Below, piece after piece: positions 3,896 through 37,427 of a stretch of 64,000 bases of DNA (position 1 is the first letter of the stretch; the number at the start of each line of letters is the position of its first letter). A program made the translations under genes and the position numbers. The notes below the pieces were generated by a model. The model was not told the DNA's origin. It saw nothing but the letters and a program-made list of their open reading frames with translations, and ran no database searches. The stretch is from Numidum massiliense (lineage in GTDB: Bacteria > Bacillota > Bacilli > Thermoactinomycetales > Novibacillaceae): the NCBI RefSeq assembly GCF_001375555.1, contig NZ_CTDZ01000009.1, positions 496,001 through 560,000 of the forward strand, in the 5' to 3' direction.

Positions 3896-5485
3896 TTATT
3901 TTTTTGGGAAAAGACGCGCTAAATATTTGCCGACGAGCGGCATGTACTGCACGTCGTTTTGTGCGAGGAGGCGCAACCAAACGACGACACCGAAGTACAC
4001 AATGGCGCTGCAGAGGAGTGAGAGTGCAACGGCTAGCGGTAACGGGTACGAAGCGAACCAAAGGGATACACATAAATAGCACGTCCATCCAGTGACGAGC
4101 ATCGCTAGCAGCACTTTTGCGATTTCGCGCAAGTCGAACGTAAAGTTTACGATTTTAGCAATCGAGCCGATGTGTAACAAGGTGACAATGACGATGCCCG
4201 TGTTGATCGCGATGACGACGCCGTCGATGCCGAGCGACGGCTGTGAACCGAGTAGCAAAATGAGCACCGATTTGGCGACAGTTCCGACAATTGAATTGCG
4301 CGTGGCGTCCTTGGCGCGGTCTAATCCTTGTAGAACGGCAGCAAACGGCGCTTGTACGTACGCCAAAATCGTAAAAGGCGCCATCAATTGCATCAGGCGG
4401 CCCGCATCGGCGTTGCCGAAGATGAGTAGGCACAGCGGTTCCGCTAGCACGACCATGACAGCGGCGCACGGGGCGCCGACGAACAGCGACAGGCGGAAGG
4501 ACTGTTTAAGGCGCCAGTGAATGGCCAGCTCGTCTTGTCGCGCTGCTGCCTCGGCAATCGCGGGTACGAGCGATACGGAGAGCGCATTCGTGAGAAAGCC
4601 GGGAAAAAAGACGAGCGGTACAACCATGCCTGCTAACTGCCCATACAGCGATGTCGCAGTCGCCGTCGCTAAACCGGCCAACGCTAAGCTCTGTGCGACG
4701 AGAATCGGTTCAGCGGCATATGTCACGTGTCCGATGAGGCGGCTGGCGGTGACAGGTCCGGAGATACGAAACATGTCGCGCAACAATCCGGACGGCGGTG
4801 GCCAGCGCTTCTGTCCGCTGACGCGTGGGCTGCGCGGCCGCTCCGGATCTTTTTGATAAAAATAGATCATGAGACAGAGGCCGGTAAACTCGCCGACGAC
4901 CATGCCGATCATGCCGCCGGCAGCAGCGAATTCAATGCCGCGGGGCAGTAGCAGCGAGGCAAAAAATAACACGGTAAAAATGCGCACGACTTGCTCCAGT
5001 ACACTAGCGGAAGCGGAAGGGAACATGTTTTGTTTCCCTTGAAAGTAGCCGCGAAAAATGTGAGAGACGGCGACGATCGGCACCATCGGCGCGATCCCCA
5101 TTAAGGCGTATATCGCCCGCTGATCAGTGAGTGCGTAGCGGGCGATGAGAGGTGAGGCGACGAACATGAGCGTCGTAAGTATTGCACTCGTCACGACGAC
5201 GACGCCGGTCGACACGTAAAGAACCGCGTACACGCGCCGTTCATCCTTTAACGCTTCAGCTTCCGAAACGAGTTTGGATATGGTAATATTTAAACCGACG
5301 GTAGCGAGCGTGATGACGAGCATAGCGAACGGGAAGGCCATTTGAAATAATCCCATTCCTTCGTCCCCGATCAAGCGCGTTAACGTGATGCGGTAGACGA
5401 AACCTAACACTTTATTTAAAAAACCGGCAGCTACCAAAATAAGTGTACCTTGCAAAAATGTTTGTTTGCGCAACCTTTCGGCCAT
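3896..5485 (-). CDS. spoVB: Stage V sporulation protein B / MurJ-like flippase
   Basis: 529 residues from the MAERLRKQTFLQG start. It is a polytopic protein with about 14 predicted helices of the MOP/MurJ-like exporter superfamily; the N-terminal LQGTLILVAAGFLNKVLGFVYRI and the IFRGYFQGKQNM loop are typical of SpoVB. The family is needed for spore cortex synthesis and is thought to move lipid-linked peptidoglycan or polysaccharide precursors. The start is uncertain: AGAAGGG abuts the ATG with no spacer, and the frame stays open for 68 more codons upstream, but homologues begin near this methionine. Confidence 0.9.
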   Translation of the reverse strand: MAERLRKQTFLQGTLILVAAGFLNKVLGFVYRITLTRLIGDEGMGLFQMAFPFAMLVITLATVGLNITISKLVSEAEALKDERRVYAVLYVSTGVVVVTSAILTTLMFVASPLIARYALTDQRAIYALMGIAPMVPIVAVSHIFRGYFQGKQNMFPSASASVLEQVVRIFTVLFFASLLLPRGIEFAAAGGMIGMVVGEFTGLCLMIYFYQKDPERPRSPRVSGQKRWPPPSGLLRDMFRISGPVTASRLIGHVTYAAEPILVAQSLALAGLATATATSLYGQLAGMVVPLVFFPGFLTNALSVSLVPAIAEAAARQDELAIHWRLKQSFRLSLFVGAPCAAVMVVLAEPLCLLIFGNADAGRLMQLMAPFTILAYVQAPFAAVLQGLDRAKDATRNSIVGTVAKSVLILLLGSQPSLGIDGVVIAINTGIVIVTLLHIGSIAKIVNFTFDLREIAKVLLAMLVTGWTCYLCVSLWFASYPLPLAVALSLLCSAIVYFGVVVWLRLLAQNDVQYMPLVGKYLARLFPKK

Positions 5486-24075: not shown

Positions 24076-24110
24076 AGCCATAGCTTGGCAACGGGCTATG
24101 GCTGCTTTTT
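24076..24110 (+). terminator. Internal terminator/attenuator between pspA-like and liaF-like genes
   Basis: Perfect 9-bp stem AGCCATAGC/GCTATGGCT, 10-base loop, then GCTTTTTC. It lies 28 bases after the pspA-like stop and 29 bases before the liaF-like start. It would let the first two genes be made in excess over the sensor genes. Confidence 0.8.
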
Positions 24111-24138
24111 CTTCCTGCTAGCGGAGGTGAGCGAAACG

Positions 24139-25653
24139 GTGAAAAACTCGAGGATATCGACTTACTTTCTCGGAATCGTCTTGATCGGCGTCGGTGCCGC
24201 TGTTTTATTAAAAAATTTAGGTATCATCGATTTGCACATTAGTTCATTCATTGCGCCGGCGATTTTACTTTATTTCGGGCTTAAACTGTTGGATCAAGGG
24301 CAATCGACGGGTGGCGGCGTTTGCCTCCTAATCGGGATCGGTTTACTACTCAGAGTGTTCGGCATTCATATTGGCAGTATATTCGGGTTTGCTCTATCGC
24401 TTGCGATTATTTATTTTGGCTACCGCATGATCCGGACGAAAAAAACGAAGCTCACTGTTTCACCTAAGGAGCAGGACGATAGTACAAGTGGTGACACTAC
24501 CGACGGCGAGCGCCCCTGGGAAGACGATCTACTTTGGGAGGAGTTATCCGGCGAACGCGCCAAAGGCAGCGATCATCGGGAGGCGGGGAGCGGTGACACC
24601 GATGACCGCGATGACCGCGATCACCGCGATCGTGGCAACAACGGCGATCCGTCGGGCGGGAATAACGGAAAGTATGGCAATGATCACTCCTATACGACGG
24701 ATGGTCAATATTACAAAAGTTTTACCGATAATATAAAGGACTTCTCTAAGGACATTAGGCGCGACATTGAAGAAAATATCCGCCCGGAAGAGTTGAAACA
24801 AACGCTGAAGCAGGGCGTTGAGCAATTGAAAAAGAACTTCGGGGCGACGTTTGGGAACCGTTACGAGACACCGAACGACAATCGACGAGACGAGCCGTTC
24901 GACGAAGAGCGGCGGGGAGAGCAGTTTAGCGACGCAGCAGAAGGTGAGCGCCAGTTTTACCGCGACAGTGTGGACGATGCTAACCGCCGCGATTACCGTC
25001 GGGACGAGAGGGGCGGTCGCGCGGAGTTCGATGGCGACGCCAACGGTGAGTACCGCGGCGCGTACAGGAAAGGCGACGCGCGCCGCGAGCACCGGAGTGA
25101 GTACCGAGATGCGGACGACCGGCACGAGTATTACGAGTATCACAGCGACAGCGCGGATTGGCGCAGCGAGCGGACTGAAGACGACTGGCAACGAGAGGAA
25201 CAAGACTATTACTACCGTACAGATCCGAGACGCGGTGAGTTTCGCCGCGCGCGTTCGCGGGCACGGGCATTTGCCGACCGTTCACCGAAGGTGACGCACT
25301 CGCTCATCGGTAACTTATATTTGACCGGGCCGCGGTGGGAACTTACCGATATGGACATTTGGCACGGGATTGGCGATGTGAAGATCGACCTGTCGCGCGC
25401 CTTCGTGCACGAGGGAGAGACGGTCGTCATTGTGAACGGCTGGATCGGCGACATCGACATTTTTGTCCCGTACGATTTAGATATGGCGGTATCCTGTCAC
25501 GTCAACATCGGCGATATTAATGTGTTCGGCAACGAAGACGGCGGTCTTAACCGAAGTGTGACGATCGAGACAGCCGACTATCAGACATCTACGAGACGCG
25601 TCCGCATTGTCATTAATTTGATTATCGGCGACGTCGACGTCATTTACGTGTAA
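24139..25653 (+). CDS. LiaF-like envelope stress protein with a long charged linker
   Basis: 504 residues from GTG 24139 (GGAGG 11 bases upstream; a GTG at 24127 overlaps that site). Residues 1-100 form four short helices of the LiaF-TM type. Residues about 100-380 are a polyampholytic low-complexity segment rich in D, R, E, G and Y with one amphipathic helix near DFSKDIRRDIEENIRPEEL. Residues about 382-504 match the LiaF C-terminal domain (cell wall-active antibiotic response), with repeated IGD turns in a beta-strand pattern. LiaF normally inhibits LiaS and is about 240 residues; the extra length is the linker. Confidence 0.8.
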   Translation: MKNSRISTYFLGIVLIGVGAAVLLKNLGIIDLHISSFIAPAILLYFGLKLLDQGQSTGGGVCLLIGIGLLLRVFGIHIGSIFGFALSLAIIYFGYRMIRTKKTKLTVSPKEQDDSTSGDTTDGERPWEDDLLWEELSGERAKGSDHREAGSGDTDDRDDRDHRDRGNNGDPSGGNNGKYGNDHSYTTDGQYYKSFTDNIKDFSKDIRRDIEENIRPEELKQTLKQGVEQLKKNFGATFGNRYETPNDNRRDEPFDEERRGEQFSDAAEGERQFYRDSVDDANRRDYRRDERGGRAEFDGDANGEYRGAYRKGDARREHRSEYRDADDRHEYYEYHSDSADWRSERTEDDWQREEQDYYYRTDPRRGEFRRARSRARAFADRSPKVTHSLIGNLYLTGPRWELTDMDIWHGIGDVKIDLSRAFVHEGETVVIVNGWIGDIDIFVPYDLDMAVSCHVNIGDINVFGNEDGGLNRSVTIETADYQTSTRRVRIVINLIIGDVDVIYV

Positions 25654-25666
25654 GGGAGGGCAGCGT

Positions 25667-26767
25667 ATGCCAGTCAAGCGTCTGCCTAACATTCAGTGGC
25701 AATACATGCGCCAACTGCTGTGGGCGTGTCTTAGTGCCGTGACGCTCGGAGCGATACTCTTTTTTTACGCGTGGTACGCCTTAGCGGAAATTGCCTCACT
25801 CAAGTCGTGGATGGACACGCAGTGGGGATGGTCGCTACCGGCGTTTCCTGGGATCGCTTTTGCCTTTATTTCTATCGTCATCTTTTGGCTTGCTGCCGTC
25901 GTCGTCGGGGCGCCAATTGGCTACATTAGAGGTAACTTGTTGAAAAAAAGGCTGGAAGTCGTGTTACAGTCGACGCTGCGTTTAGAACGGGGCGATTTAT
26001 CGGCGCGTATACCCGATTTAGGGGAAGATGAAATCGGGCAACTCGGGCGGCAATTAAACGACATGTCGGCGCGTTTTCAACAGCAAGTCGCTTCGCTACA
26101 ACGGTTGTCGACGACGAATGTCGAACTGACCGACCAAGTGAAACAAGGGGCCATTCTGGAAGAGCGGCATCGCCTCGCCCGCGAATTGCACGACGCCGTC
26201 AGTCAGCAGCTGTTCGCCATCTCGATGACGATGGCCGCCTTAAAGCGCACGTTCGCACACAATCCGGACAAGGCGGTACAGCAAGTGGCATTAGTGGAAG
26301 AGATGGCAGTTGCCGCCCAGTCGGAAATGCGGGCGCTGTTGCTCCATTTGCGACCAGCGCATTTGGAAGGGAAGAGTCTCACGCAAGGAGTCGGGGAGCT
26401 GTTAAGCGAACTACAAGGGAAGCATACGCTCGACTTTGTGTGGTCGATTGGCGAACTACCCGAATTGCCTAAAGGTGTGGAAGACCACCTGTTCCGGATC
26501 TTACAAGAAGCGCTCTCGAATGCGCTGCGCCACGCGAAGGCGAAAAAAATCGAGATCAAACTGTCAGTCGTCCGGCAAAACATCCGCTTAAAAATAACGG
26601 ACGACGGTGTCGGTTTTTCTGCAGAGGAAAACAGTAAGGCGTCTTCGTACGGGATGATGCTCATGCGGGAGCGCGTTGCCGAAATTGGCGGTGTTTTAAA
26701 CATTTCTTCTGCGCCGGGGAAGGGAACGATGGTCGAAGTGACCGTCCCGCTCGTCGTCAAAGAGTGA
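25667..26767 (+). CDS. LiaS-like sensor histidine kinase
   Basis: 366 residues, ATG after GGGAGGG. Two transmembrane helices (about 14-40 and 55-85) enclose a very short external loop, as in intramembrane-sensing kinases. A HAMP domain (LERGDLSARIPDLGEDEIGQL) follows, then HisKA_3 with LARELHDAVSQQLFAISM containing the phospho-acceptor histidine, then an HATPase with DDGVGFS and GMMLMRERVAEIGG. It should phosphorylate the LuxR-type regulator downstream. LiaF-S-R order supports a LiaS-like role. Confidence 0.92.
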   Translation: MPVKRLPNIQWQYMRQLLWACLSAVTLGAILFFYAWYALAEIASLKSWMDTQWGWSLPAFPGIAFAFISIVIFWLAAVVVGAPIGYIRGNLLKKRLEVVLQSTLRLERGDLSARIPDLGEDEIGQLGRQLNDMSARFQQQVASLQRLSTTNVELTDQVKQGAILEERHRLARELHDAVSQQLFAISMTMAALKRTFAHNPDKAVQQVALVEEMAVAAQSEMRALLLHLRPAHLEGKSLTQGVGELLSELQGKHTLDFVWSIGELPELPKGVEDHLFRILQEALSNALRHAKAKKIEIKLSVVRQNIRLKITDDGVGFSAEENSKASSYGMMLMRERVAEIGGVLNISSAPGKGTMVEVTVPLVVKE

Positions 26768-26852
26768 CATAAAGAGAAACAGGAGAATAGACGCCGCCGA
26801 GCGAAGACTTAACGGTTGTCGTGTAACAACTCACCTTGCGGGAGGGCTAGAC

Positions 26853-27497
26853 GTGGAAGAAAAGGTAAAGGTATTGCTTGTCGACGACCACGAAATGGTG
26901 CGTATGGGCCTAGCTGCTTTTTTATCGACGGAAGAAGGGATTGAAGTCGTCGGTGAAGCGTCGAGCGGCGCGGAAGGGGTGAAACTTGCCGTGCAGACGA
27001 AACCGGACGTCATTTTGATGGATTTAGTAATGGAAGGGATGGACGGAATTGCCGCGACGAAAGAGATCAAAAAAGTGTATCCCGAGGCAAAAGTCATCGT
27101 CCTGACAAGCTTTCACGACGACGATAAAGTCTACCCGGCAGTTGAAGCCGGCGCGTTCAGTTACTTACTGAAAACGGCGCGCGCTTCGGAAATTGCCCAA
27201 GCGGTACGACAAGCGTATCGGGGGCAATCCGTGTTTGAGGCACAAGTTGCGGGCAAACTCATCAACCGCTTTGCACGTGGGAAGCAAGAGCCTTTGCCAC
27301 ACGAACAGTGTACGGCACGGGAGCTAGAAGTGCTTTCCTTAATTGGCGAAGGGCGCTCCAATCAGGAAATTGCCGATCAGCTCTTTATTGGCATTAAAAC
27401 GGTGAAAACGCACGTTAGCAACATTTTAAGTAAACTGGGCGTCGAGGACCGTACGCAGGCGGCGATTTACGCCCATCGCCACGGTATTAGCAGTTAA
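26853..27497 (+). CDS. LiaR-like LuxR-family response regulator
   Basis: 214 residues; GTG start with GCGGGAGGG upstream. A receiver domain with phospho-acceptor D57 (VILMDLVM) and acidic DDH at 11-13 is followed by a LuxR-type HTH (residues about 147-207, TARELEVLSLIGEGRSNQEI, then TVKTHVSNIL). It is probably phosphorylated by the kinase encoded just upstream and activates the envelope-stress genes. The next gene, a CitA-type kinase, starts 14 bases after its stop. Confidence 0.93.
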   Translation: MEEKVKVLLVDDHEMVRMGLAAFLSTEEGIEVVGEASSGAEGVKLAVQTKPDVILMDLVMEGMDGIAATKEIKKVYPEAKVIVLTSFHDDDKVYPAVEAGAFSYLLKTARASEIAQAVRQAYRGQSVFEAQVAGKLINRFARGKQEPLPHEQCTARELEVLSLIGEGRSNQEIADQLFIGIKTVKTHVSNILSKLGVEDRTQAAIYAHRHGISS

Positions 27498-27511
27498 GGT
27501 GGCGAGGGAAA

Positions 27512-29374
27512 ATGATCAGGACGACAACTTCAATTGGAAGAACAACAGCGACCGCCCGCCGCCGGACAGTCACCCTCCAAACAAAAATCGTCATTTTGAC
27601 GATTCTTTTATTAGCCGTTGTGTTAGCGGTTACAAGTGTATATTTTATCCATATGTTTACGGCTACATTAGAGGAACATATCGGTGAAAACGCGCTCGAT
27701 GTGGCGCGGACGGTCGCTGAAATGCCGGAAGTAAAAGAGGCGCTCGCACGAGGTGATTCAGCGTCATCGAAGGTGATCCAGCCGTTGGCGGAACACATCC
27801 GCACCGCGACCGAGGCTGAGTTTGTCGTCATCGGCGACGTGAACGGGATCCGTTATTCGCATCCGGTTCCAGAGCGGATCGGGGCGCACATGGTCGGCGG
27901 CGACAACGATCAAGCGCTTGCCTTCGGGGAAGCTTACGTCTCCGTGGCAACGGGGACACTCGGGCGCTCGATGCGCGGAAAAGTGCCAGTCAAAGACGAG
28001 CAGGGTAACATCGTCGGCATCGTGTCGGTCGGCTTTCTCATGAAGAACATACAGGAGGCGACGATGGCTTACGTGCAAAAAATTGTTCTCATTAGCCTCG
28101 CTTGTTTACTAGCTGGCATTGCCGGGGCCGTCGCACTTGCGCGGCGCATCAAACGGGACATTTTCGGACTGGAACCCGTCGAAATCGCTGATTTGTTACG
28201 GGAACGCAACGCCATGCTGAAAGAGCGCAGCGCGATTTTGCAGTCGGTGCGGGAAGGTCTCGTTGCGATTAATCAAGAGGGGGTCATCACGGTGGCGAAT
28301 CAGGCAGCGGAACACATTTTGCAAGTGCTAGGCGAACTAATCGGCAGGCACATTCAAGCAGTCATTCCGAATACGCGCATGTTGGACGTGCTGGCGACGG
28401 GGGAACGCATTCCGGACGAAGAGATGATGATCGGTTCGCGGCTCATCGTGGTCAACCGCGTGCCGATATACGAAAGAGGTGCCGTCATCGGTGCCGTCTC
28501 CAGTTTCCGTGAAAAGTCTGATCTCGATCGCGTTCATCAAGAACTGTCCAGTATCAAGCGATACGCCTAGGCGCTACGGGCGCAAACACACGAGTTTGAC
28601 AACAAATTACATACGATTGCCGGTATGGTGCAAATTGGCGATTACGACGAAGTGAAGGCATACATTGCCGAATTGCAAAAAGACCACCAAGACATGATTG
28701 CATTTTTGCGGGAGCGCATTCCGGATAAAATGATCGCTGCCGTCATCATCGGAAAATACAGCCGAGCCCAAGAGTTAAAAGTCAACTTACAGATCGAACC
28801 CGAAAGTTCGCTTTGTCACGTTGCAGCAGAAATCGACCGCCACAAATTAGTGACGATCTTGGGGAACTTGTTGGAAAATGCGTTAGAAGCGGTGAGCCAC
28901 TCACCCCCGCGCGAACGCCGGGTCGATATGTTTGTGACCGACGGCAATGACGACATATACATCGAAGTGAGTGACAGTGGGCCGGGAATTGCTCCGGAGC
29001 ATTTGCCGTACGTTTTTTCGAGCGGTTTTTCGACGAAGAGTGGGGAACACCGCGGGATCGGCCTCGCGTTGACCAAAAGCGCCGTAGAGGAGTTAGGCGG
29101 TACGATTCACGTGAACAACCAACACGAAGGCGGAGCCCTATTTACCGTCGTCATTCCACAGCAGGGAAACGCACCATTGATGCGGAGCATTCCGCAGGGG
29201 GAAAACATTCCATTAGAGGGCAGCATTCCGCAGGGGGAAAACATTCCGTTAGAGGGCAGCATTCCGCAGAGGGAAAACATTCTATTAGAGGGCAGCATTC
29301 CGCAGAAGGGAAGCATCTCTCAGAAAAGGAGCACTCTACAGGAGGGCAATATTTCACAGGAGGGAAACAATTGA
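27512..29374 (+). pseudogene. CitA/DcuS-type sensor histidine kinase interrupted by an in-frame TAG
   Basis: A single frame runs from ATG 27512 to the TGA at 29372-29374 (620 codons) and is broken only by TAG at 28568-28570. Before the stop: a first helix (about 26-50), a PDC/sCache extracytoplasmic sensor (HIGENALDVARTVAEMPEVKEAL), a second helix near 190 and a PAS domain. After it: ALRAQTHEFDNKLHTIAGM, carrying the phospho-acceptor histidine of the HEFxNKLH box, and an HATPase domain (NLLENALEAV, DSGPGIAPEHLPYVFSSGFSTK). An ATG restart at 28625 would miss the histidine, so neither half should be a working kinase. The tail carries a hexapeptide-repeat array. A suppressed stop or a sequencing error are alternatives. 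The partner regulator and tctCBA follow. Confidence 0.85.
29186..29315 (+). repeat. 36-bp tandem repeat encoding a hexapeptide-type tail
   Basis: Units begin at 29186, 29222, 29258 and 29294 with an exact 36-base period. Each encodes GSIPQGENIPLE or a variant, itself two six-residue half-units of the form xGxxIP. More degenerate half-units continue to the stop codon. The array is appended to the HATPase domain of the interrupted kinase. Confidence 0.9.
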
Positions 29375-30078
29375 TGGAGCTCATCCGCGTCTTAATTGTG
29401 GAAGACGACTTTCGCGTCGCTCATCTCAATCGGGAGTTTACCGAACGCATCGAAGGGTTTACCGTCGTCGGAGTCGCTGGAACGGGCAACGAGGCGTTAC
29501 AGCTACTCAGGGCAACTGAGCTAGATCTCGTCTTGTTGGATGAATACGTTCCCGAATTATCGGGCAGTGACTTGCTGCGGGAGATACGCCGGAAACAGTT
29601 AAAAATCGATGTTATCTTCATTACGGCGGCGAAAGAAATTGACACAGTCCAGTCGGCCTTGCGCGGCGGTGCGCTCGAATATATTATCAAGCCGTTTACG
29701 TTCGAACGCTTTCAAGAAACACTCATCGCTTACCGGCAGTACCGACGGGAACTATTGCAGCGTGGGAGTGTGGGGCAACGGGAAGTCGATCAGCTGTTTC
29801 AAAAGCTCGCGCGACGAAGGCAACGTGAAATACACGCGAAAGGGATCGACCCGGCGACGTTGCGGCAAGTGCGCGCGATCGTTGCAGCTAAGGCGGAGTC
29901 GGAAGCGGGGGCGCTAACGGCGGAACGAGTCGGGCGCAAGCTCGGGGCTAGCCGGACGACAGCGAGGCGCTATTTAGAATATCTCGTCGCCGAAGGCGAA
30001 CTCGAGACAACGATTTCCTACGGTACTGTCGGGCGGCCGGAGCGAAAGTATATCGTACGCAGCTTGAAACATATGTGA
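29374..30078 (+). CDS. CitB/DcuR-type response regulator
   Basis: 234 residues from ATG 29374, which shares one base with the kinase stop and has AGGAGGG nine bases upstream. A receiver domain (IVEDDF, phospho-acceptor D56 in LVLLDEYVP) is followed by a linker and a helix-turn-helix C-terminal domain (TAERVGRKLGASRTTARRYLEYLVAEGELE) as in CitB, DcuR and MalR. It should regulate the tctCBA genes downstream. With its kinase broken, it may be unphosphorylated or receive phosphate from elsewhere. Confidence 0.9.
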   Translation: MELIRVLIVEDDFRVAHLNREFTERIEGFTVVGVAGTGNEALQLLRATELDLVLLDEYVPELSGSDLLREIRRKQLKIDVIFITAAKEIDTVQSALRGGALEYIIKPFTFERFQETLIAYRQYRRELLQRGSVGQREVDQLFQKLARRRQREIHAKGIDPATLRQVRAIVAAKAESEAGALTAERVGRKLGASRTTARRYLEYLVAEGELETTISYGTVGRPERKYIVRSLKHM

Positions 30079-30298: not shown

Positions 30299-31375
30299 AT
30301 GGGAAGAAGGCGTTATATTAGTGTCGTATTTAGTTTCCTTCTTGCGATGGCACTCGTATTAGCCGCCTGCCAGACAGCAGATAACAGCGAGAGTGAACAA
30401 GGGAAAGGCGATTCGGGAAAAAAGGAGGCCAAGTCCGCCACGGCGCAAGGAAATGCCGTGTGGGAGCCGGAAAAGCCCATTGAATTCGTCGCGCCTGCTG
30501 GAGCTGGCGGTGGATGGGATACGACGGCACGTACGGTGCAACAAGTGTTGTCGGAAGAAGGGCTCGTCGAAAAAAATATTATGGTCGTGAATAAACCGGG
30601 CGGTGGCGGAGCGATCGGTTGGACATACATTCACGATCAAAAAGATGGGGATCCACACACGTTGTTCGTCACGTCGCCACCGATTATGTTCGTGCCGCTT
30701 AACGGCCAGTCCGAGTATAACCATAAAGACTTCACCCCGATTGCCGGGCTCATCGCCGATTACGCGGCGTTCGTCGTGAAAGCGGATGCGAAGTGGCAGA
30801 CGATGGAAGATCTCGTCGTCGATCTAAAAAAGAACCCGCGCGCCATTTCCGTCGTCGGCGATTCGGCACCCGGCAGTATGGATCACATGCAGTTTGTAAA
30901 AGCGGTACACGCGGCGAAAGTCGATGCAAAGAACATTAAATTCGTGTCTTCGCAAGACGGTAACGGGATGGCGATGTTACTCGGCGGGCAGGTTGACGTG
31001 TATTCGACCGGTCTCGCCGAAGCGACGGAACAAGCGAAAGCTGGTAAAGTGCGCGTCCTCGCCATTACCGCACCGGAGCGGTTGAAGGAGGAGACGGTAT
31101 CCGAGTTTCCGACACTAAAAGAACAAGGCATTGACGATGAGTTTATCGTATGGCGCGGTTTTATGGGGCCTCCGAATATGGATCCCGCAGCCGTAAAGTA
31201 TTGGGAAGAAACGTTAAAGAAGATGACGGAAACTGATAAATGGCAAGAGAAATTGGAAAGTTACGGTTGGGAAGCGAACTTTATGACAAGTGAGGAGTTT
31301 GGCAACTTCTTGGATAAAGAGTATGACGTGTTTGAAAAACTGATGCAGGAGATCGGCTTAAAGAAAGGCAATTAA
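30299..31375 (+). CDS. tctC: Tripartite tricarboxylate transporter substrate-binding protein TctC
   Basis: 358 residues, ATG after GAGGAGG. A lipoprotein signal ends at LVLAAC (cysteine 24) and is followed by a low-complexity S/E/G/K linker. The binding domain starts PIEFVAPAGAGGGWDTTAR and continues with NKPGGGGAIGW, typical of the Bug/TctC family. It captures citrate or another carboxylate outside the membrane for TctAB. First gene of tctCBA. Confidence 0.93.
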   Translation: MGRRRYISVVFSFLLAMALVLAACQTADNSESEQGKGDSGKKEAKSATAQGNAVWEPEKPIEFVAPAGAGGGWDTTARTVQQVLSEEGLVEKNIMVVNKPGGGGAIGWTYIHDQKDGDPHTLFVTSPPIMFVPLNGQSEYNHKDFTPIAGLIADYAAFVVKADAKWQTMEDLVVDLKKNPRAISVVGDSAPGSMDHMQFVKAVHAAKVDAKNIKFVSSQDGNGMAMLLGGQVDVYSTGLAEATEQAKAGKVRVLAITAPERLKEETVSEFPTLKEQGIDDEFIVWRGFMGPPNMDPAAVKYWEETLKKMTETDKWQEKLESYGWEANFMTSEEFGNFLDKEYDVFEKLMQEIGLKKGN

Positions 31376-31419
31376 GCGGGTAGATCTTGTTTATATTCAA
31401 GAGAAGGGGCAGATGTAGA

Positions 31420-31875
31420 GTGTCGCTATCCACCGATCGCAAAATTGCAATCGTGTTGTTTGCCGCCGCGGTTTTTTATTTGTGGGGAGCCTACCGTTTA
31501 CCTGAATTTCCGTATACGCCGATGGATGCTGACGTCATCCCGAAAGGGTTAGGCTACTTGCTTGCGCTACTTTCTGTCATATTATTTGTGCAAAGTAAAC
31601 CTACCAGCGTCGCCGCGGAGCGACGCCGGTTGGACAAACAAGATATAGGTGTGCTCATAAGTATGTTTGGGGCGATGCTGCTTTACGTCTTTTTGCTGGA
31701 ACGCGTTGGCTTTTTGTTGACGACTGTAGCTTTTCTCATCTTCGCGACGCGTTTTCTCGGCTACCGCAAGTGGTCGGCTAACGTGCTCGTTAGTTTCATT
31801 TTTTCCGGCGCGATGTACTACACGTTTAATTACGTACTACTCATTTATTTGCCGCGCGGCATCTTGCCTTTTTGA
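31420..31875 (+). CDS. tctB: Tripartite tricarboxylate transporter small membrane subunit TctB
   Basis: 151 residues from GTG 31420 (GAAGGGG ten bases upstream); the frame is open 11 codons earlier without a site. Four hydrophobic helices and the IPKGLGYLLALLSVILF region match the TctB family. It partners TctA in the membrane. The tctC stop is 44 bases upstream. Confidence 0.88.
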   Translation: MSLSTDRKIAIVLFAAAVFYLWGAYRLPEFPYTPMDADVIPKGLGYLLALLSVILFVQSKPTSVAAERRRLDKQDIGVLISMFGAMLLYVFLLERVGFLLTTVAFLIFATRFLGYRKWSANVLVSFIFSGAMYYTFNYVLLIYLPRGILPF

Positions 31876-31973: not shown

Positions 31974-33485
31974 ATGGATGCATTAGATGGTTTATTAACA
32001 GGCCTACAAGTGGCGGTTGCGCCGGAAAATATTTTGTTCGTGTTTCTCGGCGTATTAGCAGGCACGGTGATCGGCATGTTACCTGGGCTCGGGCCGATAA
32101 GTGCGATCGCGATTATGATTCCGATTAGTTATCAAATGAGTCCAGCCTCAGCGTTAATTATGATGGCCGGTGTGTATTACGGCGCGATTTTCGGCGGCTC
32201 GACGTCGTCCATTTTGTTGAATGCGCCGGGGGTCGCCGGTACGGTGGCGACGTCCTTTGACGGTTATCCGATGGCACAGCGGGGCGAAGCGGGTAAAGCG
32301 CTCGCGGTCGCAGCGATTTGTTCTTTTGCCGGGGGGACAATCGGCGTCGTGTTACTGATGATGGTGGCGCCACTCATGGCGGATTTTGCCGTTTCCTTCG
32401 GACCTACTGAGTATTTTGCCCTCATGTTGATGGGGCTGACGGCGATTGCCAGTTTGTCCGACGGATCGACAGTAAAGGCCCTCATTGCCGGTGTCGCTGG
32501 ACTCATGTTGGCCACTGTCGGGGTCGACGGGCAAACGGGGACGCAGCGGTTCATGTTTGGCTCGACGCACTTGGCCGACGGGATCGACTTTCTCGTCATT
32601 GCCCTCGGTGTGTTCGCTTTGGCGGAAGTCGTGTTTTTAATTTTGGCGCGGCACGAGAAGTTTGCCCATAAAAAGAGCATTGGCAGTTTGCGCTTGAACA
32701 AAAAAGAAGTGAAGCAGCTGGGTGGCCCGGTCACACGGCATTCGCTGTTCGGGTTCGTCGTTGGGGTGCTGCCCGGCGCCGGGGCGACGATCGCTTCCTT
32801 TTTATCGTATTTGACAGAAAAGCGGTTAGCGAAAGACCCGTCCCAGTTCGGCAAAGGAGACATACGCGGTGTCGCGGCGCCGGAGACGGCGAACAACGCG
32901 GCGTGTAGCGGGGCGTTCGTGCCGCTGTTGACGTTAGGTATTCCCGGGTCGGGGACGACGGCTGTGCTATTAGGGGCATTGCTCGTCTTCGGCATTCAAC
33001 CAGGGCCGCTCTTGTACGAGCAGCATCCGGACATTTTTTGGGGCGTCATTGCCAGCATGTACGTCGGCAACATCTTTTTGCTCATTCTCAACTTGCCGCT
33101 CATCCCGTATTTTGCGCGCATTTTACTTATTCCGCGCCCAATGCTCATCGCGCTCATTATCATTTTTTGTTTTATCGGCGTGTTCGGGGTGAATTTTAAT
33201 ACGTTTGATTTGTTTTTGTTGCTAGCTTTAGGTGTGGTCGGCTTTTTGATGCGCATGTTTGAGTTTCCGGCACCGCCCTTTATTCTCGCCTTCATTCTAG
33301 GGGGGATGATGGAGCAGTCGCTGCGGCAGGCGCTAACGATTTCGAACGGTGATTGGTCCGTGTTCGTGACGAGTCCGATTGCGCTCGTACTGTTCGTCTT
33401 GACCGTTTTGTCGCTGTTGTTTCCTTACTTGCGGCAATGGGTGGTACGGCGTTTGGGTGGTAATGGGGAACAGGCCTCCGTTTAA
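31974..33485 (+). CDS. tctA: Tripartite tricarboxylate transporter large membrane subunit TctA
   Basis: 503 residues, ATG after GAGGTGA. About 11-12 helices. It carries the two conserved family motifs, [21 protein letters not shown] near residue 30 and its repeat [20 protein letters not shown] near 258, plus [19 protein letters not shown]. TctA is the transport channel driven by cation gradient. Last gene of tctCBA; no clear terminator follows. Confidence 0.95.
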
Positions 33486-36488: not shown

Positions 36489-37427
36489 TTACTCGTCGCG
36501 CAACGACGTACCTGTTAAATTGAGAAACACTGTCTCTAGTGAGGGGCGGACGACTTCGAGTCTTTTCACGGTAAACTTTCGTTCGATTGCAGTGCGCATC
36601 ACGTGTTGCATCGTCTCTTGCACGGCATCACTCTCTAACTTCCAGCCGCGGCCTTGCGCGGTCGCTTTTGTCACCGCTCGGAACTGCGGTAACTGCTCCA
36701 TGTTACCCGCTTCTAAATCGTCCGCCTCAAAGTAGATCGCGTTCTCGCCGTAGCGCTCCAGCAATTCGTGCAAGGCGCCTTGGGCGATGACGCTGCCGCT
36801 GTCGATAATCGCGATTTCATCGCAAAGGGCTTCCACTTCTTCCATGTAGTGGGTCGAGTAGACGATCGTCACCCCTTCCGTTTGCAACTTGCGAATCATG
36901 TCAAAGATCAAGTTGCGCGACTGTGGATCGATCCCGACCGTCGGCTCGTCGAGGATGAGCAATTCGGGGCGGTGGAGGAGAGCAGCGGCGATGTTTATGC
37001 GTCGCTTCATCCCACCGGAAAAATTGCGTACCGGTTGTTTCGCGCGGTCGGCAAGGCCGGTGAACTGTAACACGTCGTCAATGCGCGCCTTCAGTTCCTT
37101 GCCACTCATCCCGTACATTTCGCCGAAAAAAATGAGGTTATCGTAAGCGGTAATTTTTTCATACAACGCAATCGCTTGTGGGACGTACCCGATTTTGCGG
37201 CTAATGTGTCGGCGTTGTTTTTCGCTGTCAAACCCGAGGACGTTGGCCGTACCGCTGTCAGCGTCGACAATGCCGGTCACAATTTTCATCGTCGTCGACT
37301 TTCCGGCACCGTTCGGCCCGAGTAAGCCGACACACGACCCGCGCCGCACGGAAAAGGTCACGTCGGTAAGCGCGCGTTTGCTACCGTATGCCTTTGTTAG
37401 TCTGTTTACATGTAAAACTGTTTCCAC
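36489..37427 (-). CDS. ABC transporter ATP-binding protein
   Basis: 312 residues from GTG 37427, which has GGGAG eight bases upstream; an in-frame ATG five codons earlier overlaps that site. Walker A GPNGAGKST, signature FSGGMKRR, Walker B LLILDEPTVGID and switch histidine in YSTHYMEE are all intact. The C-terminal about 90 residues are the regulatory extension of DrrA/NatA-type exporters. It energises the permease downstream. Confidence 0.93.
   Translation of the reverse strand: METVLHVNRLTKAYGSKRALTDVTFSVRRGSCVGLLGPNGAGKSTTMKIVTGIVDADSGTANVLGFDSEKQRRHISRKIGYVPQAIALYEKITAYDNLIFFGEMYGMSGKELKARIDDVLQFTGLADRAKQPVRNFSGGMKRRINIAAALLHRPELLILDEPTVGIDPQSRNLIFDMIRKLQTEGVTIVYSTHYMEEVEALCDEIAIIDSGSVIAQGALHELLERYGENAIYFEADDLEAGNMEQLPQFRAVTKATAQGRGWKLESDAVQETMQHVMRTAIERKFTVKRLEVVRPSLETVFLNLTGTSLRDE

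Follow-up and report, generated by a model that had tools for sequence, protein, structure and literature searches.

A CitA/DcuS-type sensor histidine kinase gene lying directly upstream of an intact citB-tctCBA gene set is interrupted by a single in-frame TAG codon. We consider it highly probable that a recent nonsense mutation at this codon removed the signal input of the tricarboxylate-uptake operon. The case is that of an ordinary gene disruption, with no sign of a new mechanism.

One kinase frame interrupted by a TAG codon

Read directly along the window (the whole 64-kb stretch of DNA analysed), positions 27512-29374 of the plus strand form one 620-codon frame whose sole interruption is the TAG at 28568-28570. 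An ATG at 27512 opens 352 codons, followed by the TAG, 267 further codons and a TGA at 29372-29374. The TAG is thus codon 353, with the phospho-acceptor His360 of THEFDNKLH seven codons further on, and apart from it the whole frame contains neither a second stop nor a frameshift. An earlier sequence-only reading had placed the stop at these positions and held that the domains on either side belong to one protein, and both statements agree with what we find. In profile searches with NF008298 (DcuS/MalK, NCBIfam), the 5′ half matches positions 1-330 (E 1.7e-82) and the 3′ half matches positions 332-527 (E 8.2e-56), adjoining the first match without overlap. Because the two halves correspond to adjoining, non-overlapping parts of one profile, they represent one gene cut by one codon rather than a chance arrangement. 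Together they span 1 to 527 of the 529 positions of the family that includes E. coli DcuS (of DcuSR) and MalK, the stop costing no more than position 331; unlike those genes, the window copy is TAG-interrupted and linked to tctCBA, and its ligand is only presumed. Across the 64-kb window, long open segments lie in the same frame on both sides of one stop in nine cases. The next largest after the kinase pair, at 36491, was set aside as two adjacent ABC-transporter genes rather than halves of one protein.

The features of the kinase gene and its neighbours are as follows.

27512..28570, + strand: citA-type kinase gene, 5′ part, with TM helix, sCache_3_2 ligand domain, second TM helix and PAS; ends at the premature TAG
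28568..28570, + strand: premature in-frame TAG, codon 353, seen in the sequence; residues at this column in 107 homologues: E 74, D 23, N 7, Q 3
28571..29374, + strand: citA-type kinase gene, 3′ part, translation not expected; histidine helix (His360 at 28589-28591), HATPase_c and repeat tail (Pfam SPOB_a and HATPase_c)
28625..28627, + strand: next in-frame ATG, 3′ of the phospho-acceptor His, with no Shine-Dalgarno (anti-SD pairing -2.6 kcal/mol)
29186..29305, + strand: 36-bp tandem repeat, 3.3 copies (TRF, 95% matches), encoding a 12-residue repeat in the C-terminal tail
29371..30078, + strand: citB/dcuR-type response regulator, intact (Response_reg 1-109 of 111, HTH_64; DcuR profile E 1.1e-47)
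30299..31375, + strand: tctC, substrate-binding protein of a tripartite tricarboxylate transporter, intact (PF03401 2-274 of 274)
31387..31875, + strand: tctB, small membrane subunit, intact (PF07331 4-137 of 137)
31974..33485, + strand: tctA, large membrane subunit, intact (PF01970 1-423 of 423)

Upstream of the stop, the frame encodes an extracytoplasmic sCache_3_2 domain (PF17203, 2-134 of 140, E 6.8e-32), which also matches CitA periplasmic-domain structures (E 3e-35 for the histidine kinase structure 8bgb), and a cytosolic PAS domain (PF00989, E 1.3e-5) that is likewise recognized through DcuS and CitA PAS structures (5fq1, E 1.9e-21; 8bjp, E 9e-21). Downstream, in the same frame, Pfam finds the histidine helix (SPOB_a) and HATPase_c. 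Unbroken translation through the histidine and ATPase regions, as a functional kinase would need, is not encoded, given the TAG at codon 353 and the finding of no suppressor tRNA. The gene does show a single disabling change in a frame that relatives keep intact, the mark of a pseudogene made by nonsense mutation.

The residues that are invariant in the alignment are all retained (R114, H117, R155, K157, H360, N452, N456, D488, G490, G492, G515 and G517), as are the motifs on both sides of the TAG, including DSGPG and GIGL. R114 and H117 (within GIRYSHP), R155 and K157 are residues expected to contact ligand, and H360, N452, N456, DSGPG and GIGL are expected to serve catalysis. Going by the motif, the counterparts of R114 and H117 in Geobacillus thermodenitrificans CitA are R93, which was mutated in the study of that protein, and H96 (PMC11754779). 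The window protein resembles this CitA (PDB 8bjp, PAS domain; PMC11754779) and related CitA structures in its Cache/PASp ligand domain and cytosolic PAS; unlike it, the window copy ends before the histidine helix and carries a unique 7-residue pre-PAS insertion and a repeat tail. The insertion (28202-28222, residues 231-237) places ERNAMLK beside ERSAILQ, is exactly one heptad long, sits in the helix between the second TM segment and the PAS domain, and occurs in 0 of 107 homologues. The tail, a 12-residue repeat after the kinase core, appears in the insert columns of the alignment only for the window copy and is absent from homologues.

Conserved columns are departed from at 4 of 71 sites upstream of the stop and at 5 of 45 beyond it, no more than intact homologues also show. 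The mean divergence downstream is slightly above the value predicted from the upstream part (z 1.42, rank 7 of 108), a difference that is not significant. Since motifs are retained on both sides, the 3′ half shows no significant excess of divergence and no second lesion is present, the lesion looks recent, as judged against genomes of which the nearest (G001) shares the family, belongs to a different genus and has a kinase 41-43% identical.

The interrupted position in homologues

Relatives of the kinase were gathered by several routes. Among named genomes a single-protein query did not find the relatives, and an alignment query gave 80 homologues; the 209 residues around the stop served as query against 399 genomes of the class. 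An uninterrupted kinase frame is present in the 29 homologues taken from the nearest genomes and in 79 of the 80 from named genomes. The one exception, in a metagenome-assembled Denitrovibrio (L134), has an in-frame TAG at about 4133-4135, early in the Cache domain and ~300 codons upstream of the site corresponding to codon 353. Within the 209-residue region, no stop was found among the other matches listed in the class scan. From these intact frames it follows that, among all homologues compared, the stop is private to the source genome; the source species is represented by one genome, and the stop may be private to one strain or culture.

The interrupted column lies within YxEALRAQTHEF; across the 107 intact homologues that were aligned, it holds E in 74, D in 23, N in 7 and Q in 3. 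The proposal that the TAG replaced an E or Q codon therefore fits a column that is mostly Glu, with Gln in few homologues and Asp and Asn also accepted. In the citA-citB-tctC(B)A loci of relatives such as Paenactinomyces, Kroppenstedtia and Brevibacillus, gene order is alike in most and the kinases are 41-48% identical to the window copy, and, unlike it, they are uninterrupted at the position of codon 353.

Alternatives to a broken gene

A base-call or assembly error, which would leave the kinase intact in the living organism, is unlikely. A clean frame with no second lesion and with conserved motifs on both sides is what such an error would give, but the site lies outside any homopolymer or repeat, the assembly is 100% complete in 9 contigs, and substitution errors that happen to create a stop are rare compared with ordinary pseudogenes. 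If UAG were decoded as a sense codon, whether through a suppressor tRNA or through programmed readthrough, full-length kinase would result, perhaps as a minor form. The frame 3′ of the TAG is open and motif-complete, as this would require, and a 5-bp hairpin begins directly 3′ of the TAG. The machinery for recoding is nevertheless absent. The anticodon CUA occurs in 0 of the genome's 55 tRNA genes, all loci having been checked, so that the search for a UAG-reading suppressor proposed in the sequence-only reading came back empty. A tRNA-Leu with anticodon UAG was dismissed as a suppressor (it reads CUA, not UAG), as was a weak tRNA missed by ARAGORN (L068, G000:C9:2436757-2436828), whose anticodon is UGU and which adjoins small unknown genes. 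The PylS profile scores 26 bits inside a 647-residue frame, far short of its cut-off (178 bits), and gives no sign of pyrrolysine use. The gene for release factor 1, the factor that reads UAG, is intact, in keeping with the remark in the sequence-only reading that TAG serves as an ordinary stop in dtd and the comN-like gene. The hairpin falls in the conserved ALRA coding stretch, and the RNA fold 3′ of the TAG is unexceptional (z -1.76, with 13 of 200 shuffles as good). Rfam gave no match in 20-40 kb, our literature search found no paper joining stop codon readthrough, histidine kinase and amber, and no relative among the matches listed in the 399-genome scan has a stop at this site. Recoding of the kinase gene is not supported by these data, and we regard it as very improbable. 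Slimmer still is the prospect of regulated, low-level amber readthrough, by which the cell would make chiefly a membrane sensor lacking the kinase part, along with a small amount of the full-length protein; if true, signal gain would be set by translation.

Restart of translation downstream fares no better. No ATG, GTG or TTG stands in frame in the stretch from the TAG to the His codon, and the next ATG, at 28625, pairs with the anti-SD at only -2.6 kcal/mol, versus -8.7 to -12.7 kcal/mol at other starts tested. The claim that this ATG could not rescue the kinase holds, as it lies after the histidine and is without Shine-Dalgarno pairing. With no CUA tRNA, PylS below its cut-off, RF1 intact, an unremarkable RNA fold and a weak SD at 28625, both readthrough and restart of the kinase are unsupported. 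The two open segments are each bounded where domains begin or end, which might suggest separate sensor and kinase proteins that reassemble. Such a split kinase is exceedingly improbable, however, given the lack of a start codon before the His and of a Shine-Dalgarno at 28625, and the comparison with relatives also speaks against it: separate sensor and kinase genes divided at the codon-353 site, named beforehand as an observation that would overturn the loss of the kinase, occur neither in the near or named homologues nor among the matches listed in the 399-genome scan. One CitA homologue (G010:C15:23188-24755) is split into two frames at another place, near residues 173-183.

Operon context and expected consequence of the lesion

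The adjoining genes had been described as looking intact, and domain matches show citB, tctC, tctB and tctA to be complete. The start of citB lies at or close to 29374 and is served by a strong Shine-Dalgarno of its own (-11.4 kcal/mol), which sits just past the 36-bp repeat, inside the C-terminal tail of the kinase frame. Kinase and regulator occur together in 80 of 80 named loci, and in 63 of these tctC and tctA are present too, in the order citA-citB-tct. This linkage in relatives suggests that the ancestral role was very probably control of the tctCBA transporter by its tricarboxylate substrate, the presumed ligand.

Under the nonsense mutation that we favour, the ancestor would have been an ordinary CitA/DcuS-type sensor histidine kinase governing the adjoining tctCBA via the response regulator. 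A single change at codon 353 would have ended the protein after the PAS domain and short of the histidine helix, leaving a membrane-bound Cache-PAS stub that may still bind ligand. Because it would lack the histidine and the ATPase domain, the stub is predicted to be unable to phosphorylate CitB. CitB itself is probably still made, from its own strong ribosome-binding site, and would have lost its cognate phosphate donor; tctCBA would then be expected to stay at its uninduced expression, unless cross-talk or acetyl phosphate drives it. Of the recent loss of signal input proposed earlier, the nonsense codon, the intact neighbours and the lack of rescue stand, and its recency is an appearance drawn from the retained motifs. 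Significance beyond this genome is small. The tricarboxylate-uptake operon is probably without its cognate signal input, so the presence of the genes is by itself no sound basis for predicting growth on the substrate, and automatic annotation may enter the two kinase fragments as separate genes.

On its upstream side (window 24085-29374), the kinase begins only 14 nt past the stop of liaR and is for that reason probably co-transcribed with the liaFSR-like genes; a LiaS match near the kinase was found in 0 of the 80 named relatives. Elsewhere in the genome, a second citAB pair at G000:C9:94 kb is intact (kinase paralogue at G000:C9:94280-95857) and has genes for a DctP-type binding protein and a DASS-type transporter as neighbours. 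If the orphaned CitB is cross-phosphorylated at all, this pair would be the most obvious source, though this is speculation. A short kinase at C9:1917726 was considered as a second broken gene and rejected, as it has its own start and response regulator. In the same-family genome G001 (L023, about 4170-4225), the kinase is intact and tctC is frameshifted, so that the same operon is damaged in a different gene.
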